Source: Marinobacter sp. (GTDB lineage Bacteria > Pseudomonadota > Gammaproteobacteria > Pseudomonadales > Oleiphilaceae). From it: 64,000 nucleotides of DNA. Every line of letters begins with the position of its first letter. The first letter of the stretch is position 1. Shown here piece by piece: positions 1,994 to 19,949 of the stretch. A program made the translations under genes and the position numbers. Under the pieces are notes generated by a model. The model was given only the letters and a program-made list of their open reading frames with translations, ran no database searches and was not told the DNA's origin. The stretch spans positions 1 to 64,000 of the forward strand of contig JAIUMV010000013.1 in the NCBI GenBank assembly GCA_022565395.1. Direction: 5' to 3'.

Positions 1994-4900
1994 GGGGATG
2001 CTCTCCGTCCGGGTTTTGGGCTTCAAGGTGGATGCCCGCCAGTTGCTGATAGAGTTCACGACGGTCGGCAGCGGCTTCGGTGGCAGCAGCAACCAGTAGC
2101 TCATAGCGCTCCGGGTCACGCAGCTCCAACATACGGAAGCGGGCTTCCTCTTCCATATAGCGCCGCATGGGGACTTTCTGGCGTTTGGAGTCCAGCTGCA
2201 GGGGCGGCAGGCCTTGCGGGGTGCGCCGGGGGTCGAAGCGATACAGGGGCCAGGCCCAGCTATCAACGGCTCGGCGCTGCTGATCTGCGGAATGCACCAG
2301 ATCATAGCCGTGGGCAATGCAGGGGCTGTGGGCGATGATCAGCGCCGGGCCGTCGTAGCTCTCGGCTTCCTGAAACGCCTTGGCAGCCTGCGCGGCGTGG
2401 GACTGCATGCCAATCTGCGCCACATAGACATGGCCGTAACTCATAGCCAGCAGACCCAGATCTTTTTTGCGGGTTTCCTTACCGGCGGCAGCAAACTTGG
2501 CAATGGCACCAATGGGTGTCGCCTTGGATTGCTGGCCGCCAGTGTTGGAGTAGACCTCCGTATCCAGCACCAGCAGCTTGATGTTGCGGCCGCTGGCGAG
2601 CACGTGGTCGAGCCCGCCGTAGCCAATGTCATAGGCCCAGCCATCACCGCCAATAACCCAAACGCTTTTCGGGCAGAGCTCGTCTGCCAGCCGCGCCAGC
2701 TCGCCGGCCATGGGGTGTTTGATATCCTCGAGCTGTTCCTTCAGGTTCACAATGGCCGCTCGTCGCGCTGCCACCTGGCCGTCATCCAGCGTTTCGCATG
2801 GCGCTTGTAGTTGCTGTACCAGCGTCTCGGGCAGCTGCGGCGCCACACTCTGCAGTAGGTACGCTGCCCGCTGCTGCAGGCTGTCAAGCGCCAACCGGAA
2901 GCCCAGTCCTAATTCGGCGGCATCCTCAAACAGGGAGTTGTTCCAGGTTGGCCCCCGCCCCTGTTGGTCCGTGGTGTAGGGCGTGGTGGGCAGGTTGCCG
3001 CCGTAGATGGAGGAGCAACCGGTGGCATTGGCGATCATCAGGCGGTCACCCACCAGCTGGGTAAGCAGGCGGATATAGGGTGTTTCTCCGCAACCGGCAC
3101 AGGCACCGGAAAACTCGAACAAGGGAATCAGTAATGGCAGGCCCCGGACATTGCGGGGGATGCGGGTGCGGTCCACCTCGGGGCGACTGCGGAAGTAGGC
3201 CAGATTGATCTCTTCAGCGTCCCGGTGTGCCAGCCGCGGCTGCATGTTAATGGCTTTACGCTTGGGCTGCTGTTTGTCTTTCGCCGGGCAGACTTCCACA
3301 CACAGGCCGCAGCCGGTGCAGTCTTCCGCCGCCACCTGCACCCGGTACTGCAGGTCTTCAATACCTTCCGTGCCTGCCTCATCCACGGTCTCGAACAGAT
3401 CCGGTGCAGCGGTGAGGTCGTCCGGATCAAACACCCGGGTCAGAATGGCGCTGTGAGGGCAGATCATGCTGCAGAAGTTGCACTGTACACAGAGGTCGGA
3501 TTCCCAGATGGGCACCTCCTGAGCGATGCCCCGCTTCTCATACTGGGCAGTGCCCGTAGGCCAGGTGCCATCCACGGGAAAGGCGCTCACCGGCAGCTTC
3601 TCGCCCTGCCCTTCCATCAACAGGCGGGTCACCTTTTGTACAAACTCTGGCGCGTCACCGCTGATCAGGGGTGGCCGGCGGCGCTGGCTGGTGACTTTGC
3701 CCGGTAAGGGTACTTCATGCAGGTGGGCAAGGCTGGCGTCTACGGCCTCCAGGTTGCGGCGGACAATTTCTGGTCCACGGCGGCCCCAGGTCTCCTCGAT
3801 GGATCGTTTGATATGTGCGATGGCCTCCGCCTTGGGCAGAATATCAGCAAGGGCAAAGAAGCAGGCCTGCATTACCGTGTTGATGCGCTTATCCAGCCCT
3901 GCCTCATCCGCCACCCGGGTGGCGTCAATCACAAACAACCTCACCTGGCGATCCAGCAACAGCCGCTGGGCCTCATAAGGCAACTGATCCCAGGCTTCCG
4001 CCGGTGACCAGGGTACATTGAGCAGCACCGTCGCCCCTGGCGCGGCCTGTTCGAACACGTCGAAGCGTTCGATAAACTGCGGTGCATGTACCGCCAGGAA
4101 GTCTGCCTGACTGATCCGGTAGCTGGACCTTATCCAGCGAGGCCCGAAGCGCAGATGAGACACCGTGGTGGCGCCGGACTTTTTCGAGTCATAGACAAAG
4201 TGCCCCTGGGCAAACAGTTCAGTGCCCTCCCCCAGAATCTTGATGCTGGCCTTGTTGCTGCTAACCGTGCCGTCTGCACCCAGGCCGAAAAACAGCGCTC
4301 GGCGGGTGTCCGCTGGTTCGATGCTGAGGGCTTCATCGTCAGTGAGGGACAAATGGGTGACGTCGTCCTTGATGCCCACGGTAAAGCGCATTTTAGGCTG
4401 CTCTTTGGCCAGCTCGGCAAAGATGGCGCAGACCATGGCGGGGGTGAACTCACGGGACGACAGCCCATATCGGCCGCCAATCAGCCGTGGCATCTGGGTG
4501 AGCTGGCCCTGCGACCAGGCTGTCATCAGGGCGCCACTGATTTCCAGCAGCAGTGGCTCACCAGCGGCACCGGGCTCTTTGGTGCGATCAAGCACGGCGA
4601 TATGGCGTACCGTGTCCGGCAGGGCTGCGAAAAAGTGCTGCAATGAGAAAGGCCGGAACAGGCGGACCTTGAGCACGCCTACCTTGTGCCCCTGTTCCAG
4701 CAGCCACTCCACCGTCTCATGGGCGCACTCCGCACCGGAGCCCATCAACACAATAATGCGCTCGGCTTGCGGGTGCCCCACATAGTCAAACAGCTTGTAG
4801 TGACGGCCGGTGCTCTCGGCAAACCGGGTCATAACCGTTTCCAGGTGTTCCGGAAACCGGTCGTAAAAGGGATTGGCGGCCTCACGGGCCTGGAAGAAAG

Positions 4901-13790: not shown

Positions 13791-15596
13791 TCAGTAAATG
13801 AATACTGCACCAAGAGGAACGCTCATCGGCTGACCCTCGCTTGCTGTGGCCACCTCATCCGAGGCGTACGCTGGCGCGCCGATCAGCAGCGAACGGCCGC
13901 CATCCCTGAGCGCTACAGCCATACCAAACGCACTTTCCTTGTGGATGCCTGGGGGCGTCTGCACACTTTCCAGTATCCATTCTGTCCCCTGGTCCCGATA
14001 GACAAATACCGCGCCCACATCGGGCAAAAACGATGTGTTGTCCGGCTCGGTAGCCACACCGCTAAACGGTGCAGCAATGGCGATAAATTTGCCGTCTGGC
14101 GTGACAGCAAGGCGCATGCCGAAAGCGCGGCTGTCCACCTCAGTAACATGCCTTGGTGGTTCAAAGCTGCTTACCGCCTGCAGCACGGCGCCCGCCTGCA
14201 GCACCAGATAGAGAAACGCCCTGCCTCGTCCGCTTTCTGAATCCGGAGCTCCTACCAGCAGGTAACCGCCATCCTTGAAAAAAGCCAAGTGTTCACCAAA
14301 GCCGGATACCTGCGGGTCTTTGATCACCTTGTCGCCCACAAGCCGCCACTGCCCTTGTTCCTCGCGCCACAGCCCTACAGCAGCCTCTGTACTGTCCGCT
14401 ATTGGCATGCTGTTCCCACCGAACAAATCCGGACCATAAACATTCGGCGCGCCAATTGCCAGATATCGGCCATTGGGCGAAAGTGCAAGCCCCTCACCAA
14501 ACCGCTTACCGCCGAATGCCCCGCCTGGGTTAACAATGGTTTGCTGCCAGTCAAAGTAGCCGTCGGCAAGTCTGTACAGGTGAACGTGGCCCCGACCGGT
14601 TTCAGTTGCGGGTGTTACAACGGCCAGCGTCGAGGCATCAGACGACAGGGCAAGCACCCGGCCAAAGTGGCCAACAGCATCCACACTCGACGGTGTTATC
14701 TCCTGAGTGGCTACCCAACCATCATCACGATTATTTCTGCGATAGACGTACACCGCTCCGGCGTTCGATGCGGTGCCGGCCTCCACTGTCAAAGACCGCC
14801 CCGGCGCACTGACAACCAGCCACTGCCCATCACCGGACATGGCCGTCGCCAAGCCCAAGTAATTACCGGCCTGAGGTTCCTCCGGGTCAACGTTGTAGCC
14901 CTCCAGCGACCAACTCCCCTCCTGGTCGCCGAAGGTCACGAAGCCGCCCTGAAAGTTAAGCTCATTGGCATCGCTGTCCTGGTACTCCGAAAGTGCGGGA
15001 ATACCGCTGATCCAGCGGGTACCCTCCTGATTTGACGACAATGAATAGCCTTTAAACAAAGGACGGACCGTTCTCCCGTCAACTGACACGAAAGGGGCAG
15101 GCTTAAATACACCGATGATATCAAGGAGACTGAATGCCCCGGCCGCATGCAGGTCTGCTAACCGGGTGACGGGTGAAGGGGTGGTGCACCCGCCGGCATT
15201 ACACGCTTCGAGGTAGGCGACGGTATTCAGCGCAAGGTGGGCGGACAGCCCATGTTTTACAGTGACGCCAGGCAGCGCCTCAACCGCCGGCAGGTAATCC
15301 TGACCACCATTCTCGCTGACCCAGAGGCGGTAGTAATCAGCGCCATCCACGGCCTCCCAACTGATGGCAAGCTGTTTTACGCCGTAGGGAGAGAACCGGG
15401 GTGCGGATGCAGACTGGCCAGTGAGGTCGGGTGGCTCGGAATCCGATGAATCCGAATCACCTTGTTCTGCACCTGCGGATTGTTCTACGGGGCCCATGGG
15501 GCCATCGCTGCAGGCTGCCAGCAACAGACAGAGCAGCAGAAGCGGAATAGGCAATGAAGAAACTGAAAAATGAGAAAACAACAGGACCCGAGGCAT
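13791..15596 (-). CDS. Secreted lipoprotein with a fibronectin-III-like domain and FG-GAP beta-propeller repeats
   Basis: This 601-residue protein has a signal sequence ending in LLAAC, with lipidation at Cys29. An acidic, low-complexity linker (about 32-60) follows, then a fibronectin type III-like module around 65-150 (ISWEAVDGADYYRLWVSE). From about 210 to the end there are six or so repeats of the form FGxxLAxSxDGxxLxIGAP...GxVxxYR, the integrin-alpha FG-GAP propeller pattern. Its likely role is adhesion or binding at the cell surface. It is 154 bases downstream of the metalloprotease gene on the same strand. It could be the last member of that cluster or an independent gene. Confidence 0.75.
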   Translation of the reverse strand: MPRVLLFSHFSVSSLPIPLLLLCLLLAACSDGPMGPVEQSAGAEQGDSDSSDSEPPDLTGQSASAPRFSPYGVKQLAISWEAVDGADYYRLWVSENGGQDYLPAVEALPGVTVKHGLSAHLALNTVAYLEACNAGGCTTPSPVTRLADLHAAGAFSLLDIIGVFKPAPFVSVDGRTVRPLFKGYSLSSNQEGTRWISGIPALSEYQDSDANELNFQGGFVTFGDQEGSWSLEGYNVDPEEPQAGNYLGLATAMSGDGQWLVVSAPGRSLTVEAGTASNAGAVYVYRRNNRDDGWVATQEITPSSVDAVGHFGRVLALSSDASTLAVVTPATETGRGHVHLYRLADGYFDWQQTIVNPGGAFGGKRFGEGLALSPNGRYLAIGAPNVYGPDLFGGNSMPIADSTEAAVGLWREEQGQWRLVGDKVIKDPQVSGFGEHLAFFKDGGYLLVGAPDSESGRGRAFLYLVLQAGAVLQAVSSFEPPRHVTEVDSRAFGMRLAVTPDGKFIAIAAPFSGVATEPDNTSFLPDVGAVFVYRDQGTEWILESVQTPPGIHKESAFGMAVALRDGGRSLLIGAPAYASDEVATASEGQPMSVPLGAVFIY

Positions 15597-15750
15597 GGTG
15601 CACTCCGTTGCGTGGTCGACAGATCGTCTAGGCGCAATGCCCGATTACAGCATCCAATCACGGGCAAAGCGCGCAAACCATACCGCTAAATCCGCCCTAA
15701 CTCAAGGGCACCTGCGGGTATCCTGTTAACCAGTACCGGGTCCTGCTCTA

Positions 15751-18075
15751 TCAGCTTGGCTGGACTCTGCGCAGGCTCAGCAGGCCAACAGATAGCAGCA
15801 GCAACCACAGAGACAAAGCACCGACTTTTCGCTCCTGACTGCCAGACCCTACCTGGGTGGTTGCTGGCGCCCCGACCTTCGTCAAAGCCACGGTTTGAGG
15901 GTCTGAGAGCCCCTGCCGCACCAGCCTCTCGGCTGCGATCACCAATGGCTGATAGCCTTCGGCCTCGAGGCGCAGCTCGTCCCATATGATCAGCCCATCC
16001 ACAGCACCCAGTACCAACAGATCAGTCGCAGCTGAAGCCACCCAGGCCTGGCGGTGAGTGTAGTAATCGTGGCCATCCTCATCCGCAACCGCCAGTGTCG
16101 CAGACACCTCCAGACCCTCGGTCAGGTTGTCCACCCGCACCGCCAAGAACGCATCCGCGCCTTCCAGCATGACCTGGCAGTTTCTGTACTGATCATCGCA
16201 GCCAGCCTGACCGGTATCAAGCCAAGCCGGGTTGACATCCCCGCCAGTCCAGTAAAGTCTGGCACCGTCATACAGCGCCTTGCCATCAACAACGACCGCA
16301 AACGCGCCGGGCTCACTGCCGCTGACGGATCCCAGCGACGCGTTCGCTACCAGCCCGCCATTGTCGGCGATAGTCACCTGTGCCGGATTGATTGGCTGAC
16401 CTAATTTATTGAAGAGAAAGCCGCGCAGCTCAACCGGTGAATAGTCCATTGCCACGGCTGCCATAAGAATCTGGCCGTTCGTGGCATTGGCGCCGGTACC
16501 CTGCCAACGCCAGTTAATGCGAGCCACGCCTGCGGGTACAGCAACGTCCCTCGGCTGCCAGCTGGTGTTGCTCACCGCCCCCTGATAGAGCGTCTCGCCC
16601 TGATCGCTGGTGACTACCAATGTTCCAGAGGCCCCTGCCTGCCATGCACGAACCTGGAATGTCAGTGTTTGCGGATGCACTGTGGGCGCCGGCAGCTCCA
16701 GGGTCAGACTGGCTTGTTCATTACCATGTATAGGGGGGCTCAACGCACTGACTTCACCCTGATACCGCTGCTCTGACTGAACCACCCAGGCGCCATCGCC
16801 ACTGGTGCGCCAGATTCCCGCCGCCATACCCAGCGCCTGAGCGAACGTACCCGGCTGATTACGCCAGCCTGCCGCCAAGGTCAGGGTTTCCCTGAGCACG
16901 CGGGCATTATCTTTGTCATGCTCACCTGTGGGCAGCCCGGAACCGGTATGCAGCACATCAGGGTTGGAGAAATGGGCAATCTGAGGGCAATTCCACTGCG
17001 GGCTGCAACTGCTGCCGTAGGCCATGATGGTGCGGAACTGGCGGCTACGGAAATGCCCATAGGCATAGTTGGAAAACGAATCCCGTGACCTGTCCGAGGC
17101 AATATCATCATGGTTCAGACCGAAGTTATGCCCCAGTTCATGGGCCAGGGTATAGGCGCCCAGGCAGCCCACGTTCGCACTGGTGACCGAATAGGACCAA
17201 TCTGACCAATTGGTACTACGACGCGTCAGCAGGTAACCTAGGCCACAATAGCCACTGAAACGGCCAATCAACGCCACCGCGTCCACGGAATGCAGTTGCG
17301 CCAGTGCCCTCACCGCGTTATCAGTGCGGATATGGCTGAGTGCCCGCCCCATATCATCATCCCGTTCGCTTTCACGAAGCAGGGTGTCGTCAACCAGCAC
17401 GCTGGCGACCAGTCGCACGCGTCCTGCCACCCCGCTGTTGATCAGCGCGGTATTGGTGTTATCAACAGCGTTGCGGATGGCCAGGCGCAACGCGGCTTCA
17501 TCGGCATAGGCGGAGTGGGCAACCGCGCCTGGCGTGTAGATCAGCAACAGGTCAACCTGGGGTTCTGTGCCAGCGCTGTTGGCTGCGGACACAGGCTCAT
17601 CAGACTGTCTGGCACCCGGTGCATTGCGCAGGGTGTCAATGAGCGGTTCAGTTCGCGGCCCCATAGGCGGGTGGGCGGCCTGTACCCGATCAGGGTCCAT
17701 CCGTTCAAGCCAGAGCTGCCCTCTTTCCTGATTGTGGACCCGATACTCATCGCTGCCGATTTCTATACGCCCGTACACCCGGTCACCGGTCGTGGTGATG
17801 GTGCCTTGACCAATCCGGCCAGCATTGTCACGGACAACACCACGCCATACCTTACTGGTGTCGCCGGTAACCTCAATATCGCCCTCGCCGAAATACAACG
17901 GTGCAGGCCCCGCCAGAGCCGCCCGAACGCCAGGCTGCATAATGCTTGCGGGCGAGAGCCCCAGCGGTTGGCGATCAATAATCTGGGGCGGCAAGGTCAC
18001 CTGATGGCCCGTGGCGAATGACGCCATGGACAGGAAAGTTAACAACAGCGCGAGCAATGCATTACGAACTACCAC
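15751..18075 (-). CDS. Secreted reprolysin-like zinc metalloprotease with C-terminal membrane/sorting tail
   Basis: This 774-residue protein starts at GTG 18075, in a TAGTG overlap with the upstream lipoprotein gene. A signal peptide covers about 1-22. A propeptide-like beta domain follows at about 60-125, with KVWRGVV at 75-81 and TGDRVYGRIEI at 96-106. The catalytic domain (about 172-405) has the zinc motif HELGHNFGLNHD at 312-323 and the Met-turn TIMAYG at 349-354, the layout of M12B (adamalysin-like) enzymes. Four cysteines (277, 304, 357, 363) may form disulfides. The rest is beta-rich. The last 30 residues are a Gly/Ser stretch, a hydrophobic helix and an RR pair, resembling a GlyGly-CTERM sorting signal. 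The substrate is unknown. Confidence 0.88.
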   Translation of the reverse strand: MVVRNALLALLLTFLSMASFATGHQVTLPPQIIDRQPLGLSPASIMQPGVRAALAGPAPLYFGEGDIEVTGDTSKVWRGVVRDNAGRIGQGTITTTGDRVYGRIEIGSDEYRVHNQERGQLWLERMDPDRVQAAHPPMGPRTEPLIDTLRNAPGARQSDEPVSAANSAGTEPQVDLLLIYTPGAVAHSAYADEAALRLAIRNAVDNTNTALINSGVAGRVRLVASVLVDDTLLRESERDDDMGRALSHIRTDNAVRALAQLHSVDAVALIGRFSGYCGLGYLLTRRSTNWSDWSYSVTSANVGCLGAYTLAHELGHNFGLNHDDIASDRSRDSFSNYAYGHFRSRQFRTIMAYGSSCSPQWNCPQIAHFSNPDVLHTGSGLPTGEHDKDNARVLRETLTLAAGWRNQPGTFAQALGMAAGIWRTSGDGAWVVQSEQRYQGEVSALSPPIHGNEQASLTLELPAPTVHPQTLTFQVRAWQAGASGTLVVTSDQGETLYQGAVSNTSWQPRDVAVPAGVARINWRWQGTGANATNGQILMAAVAMDYSPVELRGFLFNKLGQPINPAQVTIADNGGLVANASLGSVSGSEPGAFAVVVDGKALYDGARLYWTGGDVNPAWLDTGQAGCDDQYRNCQVMLEGADAFLAVRVDNLTEGLEVSATLAVADEDGHDYYTHRQAWVASAATDLLVLGAVDGLIIWDELRLEAEGYQPLVIAAERLVRQGLSDPQTVALTKVGAPATTQVGSGSQERKVGALSLWLLLLSVGLLSLRRVQPS

Positions 18076-18596
18076 TACAGCTCCTCTCTGTCATTGGGTA
18101 CAACCGGCTCTCCGGGGTGATGTGGTTTCCGGTACTCCTCAGCCACCACCAATACGCCTTGCGTACCGTCCACCTGCAACAGAAAACTGAAGCCATCCAT
18201 CTGGAAACTCCCTGCCAACCGCTCACCGGACCGTGACAAGGTCAAGGCTGAAACCTGCGCACTCTCGCGGTAGAGGTCACCTCGCCACACATCCGTGGGT
18301 GAGCCCTCAAGACTGGCAACATCAAACATCAGCAGCATGCCATCGGGAAGCGTCAGGAACTCCACAACACCACCCTCGTTGTTCAATGCCAGCAGCGGTG
18401 CCGGATTCACGTCCAGCAGGTACCGACGGTTAGCCGACCAGCCCGAGACGCCGTTAACAAGTGCCAGCACTGCCGTTTGTGGCCTTTCAGCTGCCCCCGA
18501 TGTACGTGTACAACCCACCAGGCTGGTCATCAGGAAGACCAACATAAGGCATGCCATAAGCCTGGCCAGGGGAGATTGGATGATGAGATTGGACAT
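18075..18596 (-). CDS. Lipoprotein resembling a free-standing M12 protease propeptide
   Basis: This is a 173-residue predicted lipoprotein. A hydrophobic signal ends in the lipobox LVGC with Cys29. Residues 100-152 (DVWRGDLY, LTLSRSGERLAGSFQMDG, GVLVVAEE) align by eye with the propeptide region of the downstream protease (KVWRGVV, TITTTGDRVYGRIEIG, GQLWLERMD). The stop codon overlaps the protease GTG start as TAGTG, so the two are translationally coupled. I choose ATG 18596 because it gives a normal n-region. Upstream in-frame ATGs at 18734 and 18620 would only lengthen the leader, and no start has a strong ribosome-binding site. A role as inhibitor or folding helper for the protease is inference. 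Confidence 0.72.
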   Translation of the reverse strand: MSNLIIQSPLARLMACLMLVFLMTSLVGCTRTSGAAERPQTAVLALVNGVSGWSANRRYLLDVNPAPLLALNNEGGVVEFLTLPDGMLLMFDVASLEGSPTDVWRGDLYRESAQVSALTLSRSGERLAGSFQMDGFSFLLQVDGTQGVLVVAEEYRKPHHPGEPVVPNDREEL

Positions 18597-18906
18597 AACA
18601 ACTCGTACGGTGAAAGCCATACCCGATATGCTACCCGAAGGCAGGAAGAAACTTGCGCTGCCGCGAGACCCGATGTTCGGATTTGAGATTTTCGGCACGT
18701 CGCGCGCTGTTAATTTGTCATTTTTTTGGCGCAAAATCGTGTGAGATACGTAGATACCCTGACGAAGACAGGGTTAGTGGCAAGGCAAATGCAAATTAAG
18801 CCAGACGAGACAAGCAAGGCCCGCAACGTCGGGTATTCGGACAGAGGTGCGTGAGGCGAGCAGAGTTACAAGCGAAGGAGGTGTTTGAGAGAAAGCAAAA
18901 AGAAAG

Positions 18907-18997
18907 TGGCGGTGGGCCAGGGATTCGAACCCCGGGAGGGCTATTAACCCTCGGCGGTTTTCAAGACCGCTGCATTCAACCACTCTGCCAGCCCACC
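18907..18997 (-). tRNA. tRNA-Ser (UGA)
   Basis: This is a 91-base class II tRNA on the reverse strand including encoded CCA. The acceptor stem pairs GGTGGGC (18991-18997) with GCCCACC (18911-18917), with discriminator G. The anticodon stem-loop GCGGT-CTTGAAA-ACCGC reads UGA. The long variable arm GAGGGTTAATAGCCCTC is diagnostic for tRNA-Ser. The neighbourhood of tRNA-Ser, yccA and tus genes is also the arrangement I recall in Pseudomonas. Confidence 0.97.
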
Positions 18998-19041
18998 GTC
19001 GGAAGAGAAGCTGCCGACGCTATGCGCCAGCAGCGGTGTGC

Positions 19042-19069
19042 ATGATACCGGAATCCGTTGGCCTGTCAA
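19042..19069 (-). promoter_or_regulatory. Sigma-70 promoter of tRNA-Ser
   Basis: On the reverse strand a perfect TTGACA (19064-19069) is followed after 16 bases by TATCAT (19042-19047). Transcription would begin near 19035, giving a leader of about 38 bases before the tRNA 5' end at 18997. It points away from yccA. Confidence 0.75.
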
Positions 19070-19253
19070 CGCCTTGTCATGTATCCATTCTATAGTCCCA
19101 CATTACACGGATTTAATGCCCGTAAGGCGGCAACCGATAGGGAAGTCATTGAAACTTCGGGGGCTGCCATTATTATGTGTAACTGACCGTCTAAACCGGT
19201 GGTGAGCTGCACTTGCTGCTAGCCACCCCACCTTTAAGTAATGGAGACTCAGG

Positions 19254-19949
19254 ATGCAAGACAGACGCGTAACCGCCATGCCTGGCGCGAGCCAGGGAGT
19301 TGGCATCAGTGCAGAAGCCCACAAGGTTCTGCGTAACACCTATAGCCTGCTGGCTATGACTTTGCTGTTCAGCGCCATTATGGCTGGCGTATCCATGGCA
19401 GTCGGGCTGGGTCGCGGCGCCTCTCTGGTCTGCTCCCTCACCGCTCTGGTTCTGATCTGGTTTGTTATTCCCCGCACCGCGAACAGCAGCGCTGGTCTCG
19501 GCGTCGTATTTGCCATCACTGGCTTGCTCGGTCTGTCTCTTGGCCCCCTGCTGATGCACTACCTGTCCGTTCCTAACGGCGGCAGCATCGTAATGCAGGC
19601 CATGGGCGGTACCGCCATCGTGTTTTTCTCCCTGTCTGCCTACGTGCTGACTACCAAGAAAGACTTTAGCTTCCTTGGCGGCATGCTGTTCGCTGGCTTT
19701 ATCGTCGTTATCGTTGGTTTCATTGGCGCGCTTATCGCGGGCATGATGGGCTATAACGTAAGCGGCTTCAGCCTGGCACTCAGTGCAGCCATTGTTCTGC
19801 TCATGTCCGGTTTCATCCTGTTTGACACCAGCCGTATCGTTAACGGCGGTGAAACCAACTACATACTGGCTACTGTTGGCCTGTACCTGAGTATCTACAA
19901 CCTGTTCACCAGCCTGCTGCATCTGATCGGCGCCTTCTCCGACGACTGA
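19254..19949 (+). CDS. yccA: YccA-family (Bax inhibitor-1) membrane protein
   Basis: This 231-residue protein has seven hydrophobic helices and the Bax inhibitor-1 family layout. It contains FDTSRIVNGGETNYILATVGLYLSIYN near the C-terminus with the conserved acidic and hydroxyl residues. E. coli YccA (219 aa) is a substrate and modulator of the FtsH protease and can protect SecY from degradation. A GGAG ribosome-binding site precedes the ATG by about 9 bases. A strong terminator follows, so the gene is probably monocistronic. Confidence 0.92.
   Translation: MQDRRVTAMPGASQGVGISAEAHKVLRNTYSLLAMTLLFSAIMAGVSMAVGLGRGASLVCSLTALVLIWFVIPRTANSSAGLGVVFAITGLLGLSLGPLLMHYLSVPNGGSIVMQAMGGTAIVFFSLSAYVLTTKKDFSFLGGMLFAGFIVVIVGFIGALIAGMMGYNVSGFSLALSAAIVLLMSGFILFDTSRIVNGGETNYILATVGLYLSIYNLFTSLLHLIGAFSDD

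Follow-up and report, generated by a model that had tools for sequence, protein, structure and literature searches.

A window of 64,000 nucleotides from Marinobacter sp. (the whole stretch of DNA analysed here, positions 1 to 64,000 of contig JAIUMV010000013.1, assembly GCA_022565395.1) encodes a lipoprotein of 173 residues just before a secreted reprolysin-type metalloprotease. Judging from the profile comparisons described below, the lipoprotein (about residues 57–171) is homologous to the whole in-cis propeptide (about residues 31–143) of the protease that adjoins it. Because it is made from a separate open reading frame (ORF) that ends in TAG and is not fused to the N-terminus of the enzyme, we do not call it a propeptide but a stand-alone homologue of one. 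The domain, the tail and the anchor of this protein make it most likely, by analogy with the partner proteins CpaB and BamI, that it would act as a tethered, trans-acting propeptide, a chaperone and/or latency factor preceding type II secretion. The coordinates and order of the two genes, correctly given in an original prediction made from the DNA letters, are listed here with their features (AF2, AlphaFold2).

18075..18596, minus strand: lipoprotein, 173 amino acids (ATG at 18596, stop TAG 18077–18075)
18510..18521, minus strand: lipobox LVGC, predicted lipidated Cys29 (read from the sequence)
18084..18428, minus strand: propeptide-like beta domain and tail, lipoprotein residues 57–171 (hhalign; AF2 strands 57–61 and 77–154)
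18114..18122, minus strand: His-His-Pro, lipoprotein residues 159–161, in the proline-rich tail (alignments)
18073..18077, minus strand: TAGTG, with one base common to the lipoprotein stop and the protease start (sequence)
15751..18075, minus strand: secreted reprolysin-type (M12) metalloprotease, 774 amino acids (Reprolysin_5, 43.9 bits for a cut-off of 27)
17647..17985, minus strand: in-cis propeptide, protease residues 31–143 (hhalign; AF2 strands 32–37 and 60–126)
16864..17562, minus strand: catalytic domain, protease residues 172–404 (Pfam; AF2; CpaA chain 6o38_A, Z 26.4)
17107..17142, minus strand: zinc site HELGHNFGLNHD, protease residues 312–323 (alignment)

A propeptide-like domain in a gene of its own

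Compared with one another by BLASTP, the two window proteins match at E 0.001 (as a single comparison), with 22% identity in 76 columns covering lipoprotein residues 58–133. A search of the genome's own taxonomic family with the lipoprotein also hit (E 7e-4) the inside of the protease that lies beside a related lipoprotein. Profiles sharpen the picture. One built from three lipoproteins and searched against whole genomes picked up the propeptide of the window protease at E 3.4e-6 and that of a further pair (genome G450) at 1.7e-10. Profile to profile, four lipoproteins and four proteases match with a probability of 98.7 and P 4.4e-16, far above background, and the match (lipoprotein 52–171, protease 27–143) covers the whole domain together with the proline-rich tail. 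Cut to the domain (four lipoproteins, four closest propeptides), the comparison gives P 3.3e-16. The real score was 93.5, while the best of 100 column shuffles reached 18.9 and the reversed profile 18.7, so that none of the shuffles was as good. An ordered pattern read by eye in the original prediction, at residues 100–152 of the lipoprotein and 73–126 of the protease, turns out to be real, being the core of this longer match.

The likeness extends beyond the close relatives. Against 69 in-cis propeptides, the subset of 79 proteases with 110–420 residues before the catalytic domain, the lipoproteins align (hhalign) at P 9.3e-13, probability 97.8, again with none of 100 shuffles as good and with the reversed profile negative. 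Conversely, a profile made from the 69 in-cis propeptides only finds the lipoprotein ORF, in a longer TTG form reaching 18734, at E 7.4e-8 (hmmsearch). When this profile, which comprises no stand-alone gene, was run on 2514 ORFs, it gave 95 matches at E ≤ 0.05: 68 ORFs taken as proteases, many of them from the profile's own training set, and 27 stand-alone genes that neighbour proteases of this kind and comprise 24 distinct sequences. No further ORF was hit. Some genes are present twice among the 2514 (loci L034/L027, L035/L097 and L083/L096). The label of protease was given by the zinc motif in 64 ORFs, without individual checking, and in four more by a catalytic-domain match (L061, L088, L095) or by likeness to tandem neighbours (L074 8406–9086, cut by the locus end). 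By itself the lipoprotein passes none of the Pfam cut-offs and matches no NCBIfam model at E ≤ 1, and its profile, searched against sequences of the PDB, retrieved one unrelated chain at E 0.56.

Two further features of the lipoprotein are conserved. The lipobox cysteine is invariant in all four lipoproteins aligned. In Escherichia coli, a residue other than Asp at position +2 after that cysteine directs a lipoprotein to the outer membrane. The window protein has Thr there and none of the four has Asp, which suggests, by this rule, outer-membrane anchoring. In 4/4 lipoproteins the tail shows four invariant prolines together with a His, at either 159 or 160 (strict His-Pro in three), and the His-His-Pro of the window protein aligns opposite His135 and Pro136, which are invariant in the four cis propeptides of the group. 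Such conservation suggests that the His/Pro tail may contact the zinc site, perhaps in a switch-like manner. In at least 14 of the 69 in-cis propeptides (by a crude, unaligned text scan; for example L037, L039 and L080), the linker after the domain has Cys-Gly. A Cys-Gly after the beta domain resembles a cysteine switch; the group of the window has His-Pro there.

The protease comprises a signal peptide, the cis propeptide, the catalytic domain and a C-terminal extension. It passes the cut-offs of Pfam Reprolysin_5, _3 and _4 and has the HEXXHXXGXXHD motif, with a Met-turn (Met351) beyond the zinc site; an alignment of 37 sequences shows H312, E313, G315, H316, H322 and M351 to be invariant. 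With the NCBIfam Mep72 model (NF052434) the catalytic part of the enzyme gives E 1.3e-28 and 99.9 bits, which do not reach the cut-off of 645, and it also matches, far below cut-off, the CpaA model. The type II secretin GspD is found over cut-off in the same genome. As for the end of the protease, it is a hydrophobic stretch followed by arginines, and it has no NCBIfam match to a sorting signal at E ≤ 10; the last 50 residues of three related proteases (L025, L026, L027) match JDVT-CTERM sorting tails.

Predicted structure

The AF2 model of the lipoprotein (predicted local distance difference test, pLDDT, 79.1) has strands at residues 57–61, 77–82, 88–97, 103–110, 113–123, 126–133, 136–142 and 148–154, with a helix at 66–69. 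In the model of protease residues 1–404 (pLDDT 84.8), the propeptide has strands at 32–37, 60–69, 74–83, 88–96, 99–106, 109–115 and 121–126, with a helix at 42–45. The order of strands is nearly the same, differing once: the lipoprotein strand 77–82, after the helix, corresponds to a mere two-residue bridge (51–52) in the protease. A similar predicted fold is thus supported, and it speaks for kinship, but it makes no independent test since the alignment used for the lipoprotein model held in-cis propeptides.

Searched with Foldseek, the lipoprotein model has as its six best matches the small chains (117–130 residues) of the CpaA/CpaB complex 6o38, taken by their size as CpaB, with a probability of 0.92–1.00 yet E values of only 0.013–0.094; an ADAM17 prodomain entry comes next. 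VIA superposes the model on 6o38_G with Z 9.5 over 109 residues, at a root-mean-square deviation of 5.2. The ADAM17 entries follow at Z 6.7–7.8, and unrelated folds lie at 6.5 and below. As VIA itself notes that Z 7–8 often arises without kinship, the link to ADAM17 is a lead only. At the sequence level, a profile of 26 rows, built from 23 in-cis propeptides, two lipoproteins and a stand-alone gene of Nitrospira, was searched against the PDB; five ADAM17 entries head the list at E 0.12–0.74, a result that is suggestive only. The protease model, for its part, matches CpaA at Z 26.4, the ADAM17 zymogen at Z 21.4 (residues 23–404) and profragilysin at Z 20.0 (residues 35–400). The lipoprotein model also resembles Ups1/SLMO1 and polyketide-cyclase folds, at Z 5–6.5, a likeness that may explain the SRPBCC assignment once given to CpaB.

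Occurrence and relatives

With the lipoprotein as query, two further lipoprotein/protease pairs were identified in the genome's own family, both in one genome; a fourth was found in G450, from another family of the same class. The three related lipoproteins are 27–36% identical to that of the window, with lipobox, domain and tail all intact. Wherever the neighbourhood is visible (4/4 cases), the lipoprotein directly precedes its protease. A fifth lipoprotein is cut by the edge of its contig (L027 1–138, genome G016, contig C452), with the C-terminal part kept, and lies about 600 bases before a complete lipoprotein gene, possibly as a tandem. The TAGTG overlap that the original prediction had pointed out is present in the window, where a GAGGAG stretch resembling a ribosome-binding site (18086–18081) precedes the GTG start of the protease (18075–18073). 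It is a local feature, because in the three relatives the genes are separated by 51, about 100 and 72 bases. The proposal that the lipoprotein is a stand-alone, membrane-tethered copy of the propeptide fared better: profile statistics, predicted fold (not fully independent) and co-occurrence all support it, and neither different folds, nor profile similarity at background level, nor missing co-occurrence turned up.

Genes of this type are rare. Within the family, 2 of 163 genomes carry them. In the class, 6 of 369 genomes match at E ≤ 0.01, two with lipoprotein genes, two with in-cis propeptides and two with further matches; the lipoprotein profile there matches G345 (an ORF of 353 amino acids) and G413 (135 amino acids) at E about 1e-3. 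In the phylum, 4 of 398 genomes match at E ≤ 0.001, namely that of the window, with its lipoprotein, and three with ORFs of 455 amino acids, one of which was checked and is a protease.

A scan of named genomes gave no match with a single protease as query, and 62 relatives with an alignment. In five of the 62, the protease has a stand-alone propeptide gene as its neighbour: a Halomonas metagenome-assembled genome (MAG; L034, already counted), Nitrospira moscoviensis (L035), where the gene is downstream, two Desulfobacteraceae MAGs (L049, L076), where it is upstream, and a Pseudomonadales MAG (L083), whose protease has no cis copy of the propeptide. In this last locus the protease (3271–4687) has a lipobox-like start, a low-complexity linker and no propeptide, and its upstream partner of 177 amino acids matches the in-cis profile at 8.9e-5; it is possible that the pair is a lipoprotein version of Mep72/BamI. 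A Bacteroidetes locus (L066 3683–5413) has propeptide-like and catalytic parts in two separate ORFs, either a split gene or a frameshift.

A tree calculated from 35 domains unites the four lipoproteins in a clade (95/84) beside that of their cognate cis propeptides (92/88), with a weak join (90/43). The Desulfobacteraceae stand-alone genes group with their own cis propeptides at 100/100 and the Nitrospira one at 89/87, while L083 sits on a very long branch. Since each stand-alone gene groups with its own cis propeptide, the tree fits two or three separate duplications of the propeptide into neighbouring genes. A single origin followed by losses may also be compatible with the label counts of the tree, and gene conversion may account for the groupings.

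Known protease partners: BamI, CpaB and others

The original prediction, which rested on no literature search, knew of no described system of this kind. There are in fact near functional precedents, CpaA/CpaB and Mep72/BamI, both studied by experiment (PMC4713064, PMC7542363, PMC4334185). Mep72 of Pseudomonas aeruginosa is reported to be co-transcribed with bamI, and BamI to bind Mep72 in vitro (with refolded proteins) and to relieve its toxicity in E. coli (PMC4334185). The gene adjoining Mep72 is listed elsewhere as a putative chaperone (PMC4713064), and PA2782 was published as having no functional homology with known proteins (PMC4222646). The resemblance to the window is in a partner gene (NF052435) placed upstream in the operon and in a related catalytic domain (NF052434). 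There are also differences. The catalytic domain of Mep72 directly follows the signal peptide, its peptidase domain beginning at residue 27 (PMC4222646), whereas the window protease keeps a cis propeptide; BamI has an N-terminal transmembrane-like stretch, where the window protein has a lipobox; and the published gap of 78 bp between bamI and mep72 contrasts with the overlap in the window.

In the taxonomic family of a Pseudomonas genome (248 genomes searched), 20 genomes have Mep72-like genes, 26 in all, of which 21 (in 15 genomes) are over the Mep72 cut-off. Each of the 26 has just upstream a partner gene of BamI type or of a second type represented at L115; the BamI-type partners were chosen by a text pattern among upstream ORFs, and that the BamI and L115 profiles retrieve these 26 again follows from how the profiles were built. 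One partner (L102) passes the BamI model with 260 bits for a cut-off of 180. In 22 of the 26 Mep72-like ORFs the zinc motif is at residue 148–184, too early for a propeptide to fit before the catalytic domain; the remaining four are read from starts placed too far upstream. Against the 69 in-cis propeptides, 20 BamI sequences align at P 7.2e-8 (probability 94.6) and five L115-type partners at P 5.2e-9 (probability 95.9), with 0/100 shuffles as good and reversed profiles negative in both cases. The in-cis profile, in the run on 2514 ORFs, finds all five L115-type genes, the L115 partner itself at 8e-11. The BamI and lipoprotein profiles, the two that were set against the catalytic domain, do not match it (P 0.8 and 0.29), and the BamI profile retrieved one unrelated chain (E 0.12) from PDB sequences. 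On these profile statistics, we place BamI in the same domain family as the in-cis propeptides, as their homologue. The link between BamI and the lipoprotein runs through the in-cis propeptides, because the direct comparison is weak.

CpaB of Acinetobacter (NF033512; structure 6o38) is likewise a membrane-anchored periplasmic partner encoded next to a secreted M72, adamalysin-like metzincin. It has been described as a membrane-bound chaperone with an SRPBCC-type domain, required for the secretion of CpaA, with an N-terminal transmembrane anchor and a gene downstream of cpaA (PMC4713064), where the window has a lipobox and an upstream gene. Its tail is reported to enter the catalytic site of CpaA as in zymogens and to block access (PMC7542363). 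Sub-threshold matches connect the L115 partner with the models of CpaB (4.8e-14) and BamI (2.8e-8). Through the L115 partners and through the fold, the small 6o38 chains being the best structural matches of the lipoprotein model, membership of CpaB in the same domain family is supported. The M12/M72 in-cis propeptides of bacteria have the same domain by profile and a similar predicted fold, but are fused to their catalytic domain, while the window lipoprotein is lipidated and made as a polypeptide of its own. The next closest fold is that of the ADAM17 prodomain (Z up to 7.8).

SUB1-ProM of Plasmodium is a stand-alone propeptide homologue encoded beside protease genes and reported to inhibit SUB1 (PMC6993865); as a mimic of a subtilisin propeptide it belongs with another protease class, and it is predicted to be soluble, with no membrane anchor. 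RhpP/RhpC was rejected as a precedent, with its M4 protease and its cytoplasmic partner of 99 amino acids (PMC6490944). Among the matches listed for open-licensed articles of PubMed Central (PMC), which do not include the CpaA/CpaB structure paper, we did not find stated a link between metzincin propeptides, BamI, CpaB and the lipoprotein. Three things are new here: the partner is anchored by a lipid, the protease has retained a cis propeptide as well, and there are signs of propeptides having been copied into neighbouring genes on more than one occasion.

Proposed function and rival explanations

By analogy with CpaB and BamI, we consider it probable that the lipoprotein is an anchored stand-alone propeptide copy acting in trans, to cap the enzyme, help its folding, keep it latent and provide a second lock. 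Its beta domain would sit on the newly made catalytic domain in the periplasm, with the tail HHPGEPVVP lying over the zinc cleft. The enzyme would fold and remain quiet until its export by type II secretion, and the cap, being anchored, would be left in the envelope. Because the protease also keeps its own cis propeptide, a role as second lock is probable: the lipoprotein would re-cap enzyme molecules that lost their cis propeptide too early, and cis and trans copies would thus divide the labour.

Several observations weigh against such a role. With a propeptide already present in the protease, the trans copy might be redundant, and genes of this type are rare. A review denies that CpaA is blocked by CpaB (PMC9952577), while another source has the CpaB tail block access (PMC7542363), which makes inhibition less certain than chaperoning. 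Parts of BamI are predicted to be natively unfolded (PMC4334185). The lipoprotein has no match at E ≤ 1 to the CpaB model NF033512 or to the BamI model NF052435, its direct profile comparison with BamI gives P 0.0055, and the in-cis profile finds just 11 of 21 BamI genes at E ≤ 0.05. To this must be added the shared alignment behind the fold comparison, the E values and the root-mean-square deviation of the matches to 6o38, and the ADAM17 matches, which are in the range reached without kinship.

Among other readings, it is possible, though we doubt it, that the protein is a folding and secretion chaperone only, which would not keep the protease inactive. This is one reading of CpaB, without which CpaA is not secreted (PMC4713064); the same review denies that CpaB blocks activity, and the cis propeptide would already supply the cap. 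Yet a tail with its His and four prolines, kept in all four lipoproteins, is expected for occupation of the cleft, not for folding, and BamI relieves toxicity (PMC4334185). Relief of toxicity would also fit an immunity-like inhibitor, protecting the cell from an enzyme active at its surface or returning to it, with no role in biogenesis. The lipid anchor with its Thr at +2, pointing to the outer membrane, and the JDVT-CTERM tails of three related proteases favour this account. It is made unlikely by the need for CpaB in secretion itself (PMC4713064), and by the tail of the window protease, with no NCBIfam match.

That the gene be a non-functional remnant of a duplicated protease gene would agree with the rarity of these lipoproteins and with the Nitrospira stand-alone gene, whose end, directly behind the propeptide domain, is what one would expect of a truncated copy. 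We find it very improbable, with three diverged relatives intact. The lipoprotein clade stands beside that of the cognate cis propeptides, and the pair would thus have been kept through a long divergence. Finally, chance resemblance of two small beta domains, which the low identity of the window pair might bring to mind, is hardly credible in view of P values of 3e-16 to 4e-16, with shuffles never as good and no stray match in 2514 ORFs.

Other features of the neighbourhood

A putative lipoprotein of 601 amino acids with an FG-GAP repeat (13791–15596, minus strand) follows the protease gene on that strand, 154 bases downstream; it was not seen beside the related pairs in L025–L027. Since Vfr drives the BamI operon, we scanned the whole window for CRP/Vfr-like sites (at most two mismatches), finding 15 where 25 are expected and none near the start of the lipoprotein gene. 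A scan of 15500–19300 gave three promoters for 1.8 expected and two terminators for 3.4, and was not used.

Significance for metzincin biology

It seems to us fairly probable that M12/M72 metzincins have repeatedly made their propeptide a separate, often anchored gene, CpaB and BamI, published as a novel chaperone with an SRPBCC-like domain and as an inhibitor lacking known homologues, being trans propeptides, perhaps of the ADAM17-prodomain kind. A cis and trans 'two-lock' state would then be represented by the window lipoprotein and by the Desulfobacteraceae and Nitrospira genes, and a trans-only state, with the cis copy gone, by Mep72/BamI, by the L083 pair and probably by CpaA/CpaB. If this is true, two families of orphan partners, CpaB and BamI, and a new family of lipoproteins would join one known domain. 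The domain link predicts how they bind, by the prodomain face and with the tail in the zinc cleft, and opens to experiment the question why certain secreted proteases depend on a second gene for their folding and quiescence. The pair of cis and trans copies would be an intermediate from which trans-only systems could have come, and propeptide homologues encoded next door would offer a genomic route to further specific inhibitors or chaperones of metalloproteases.

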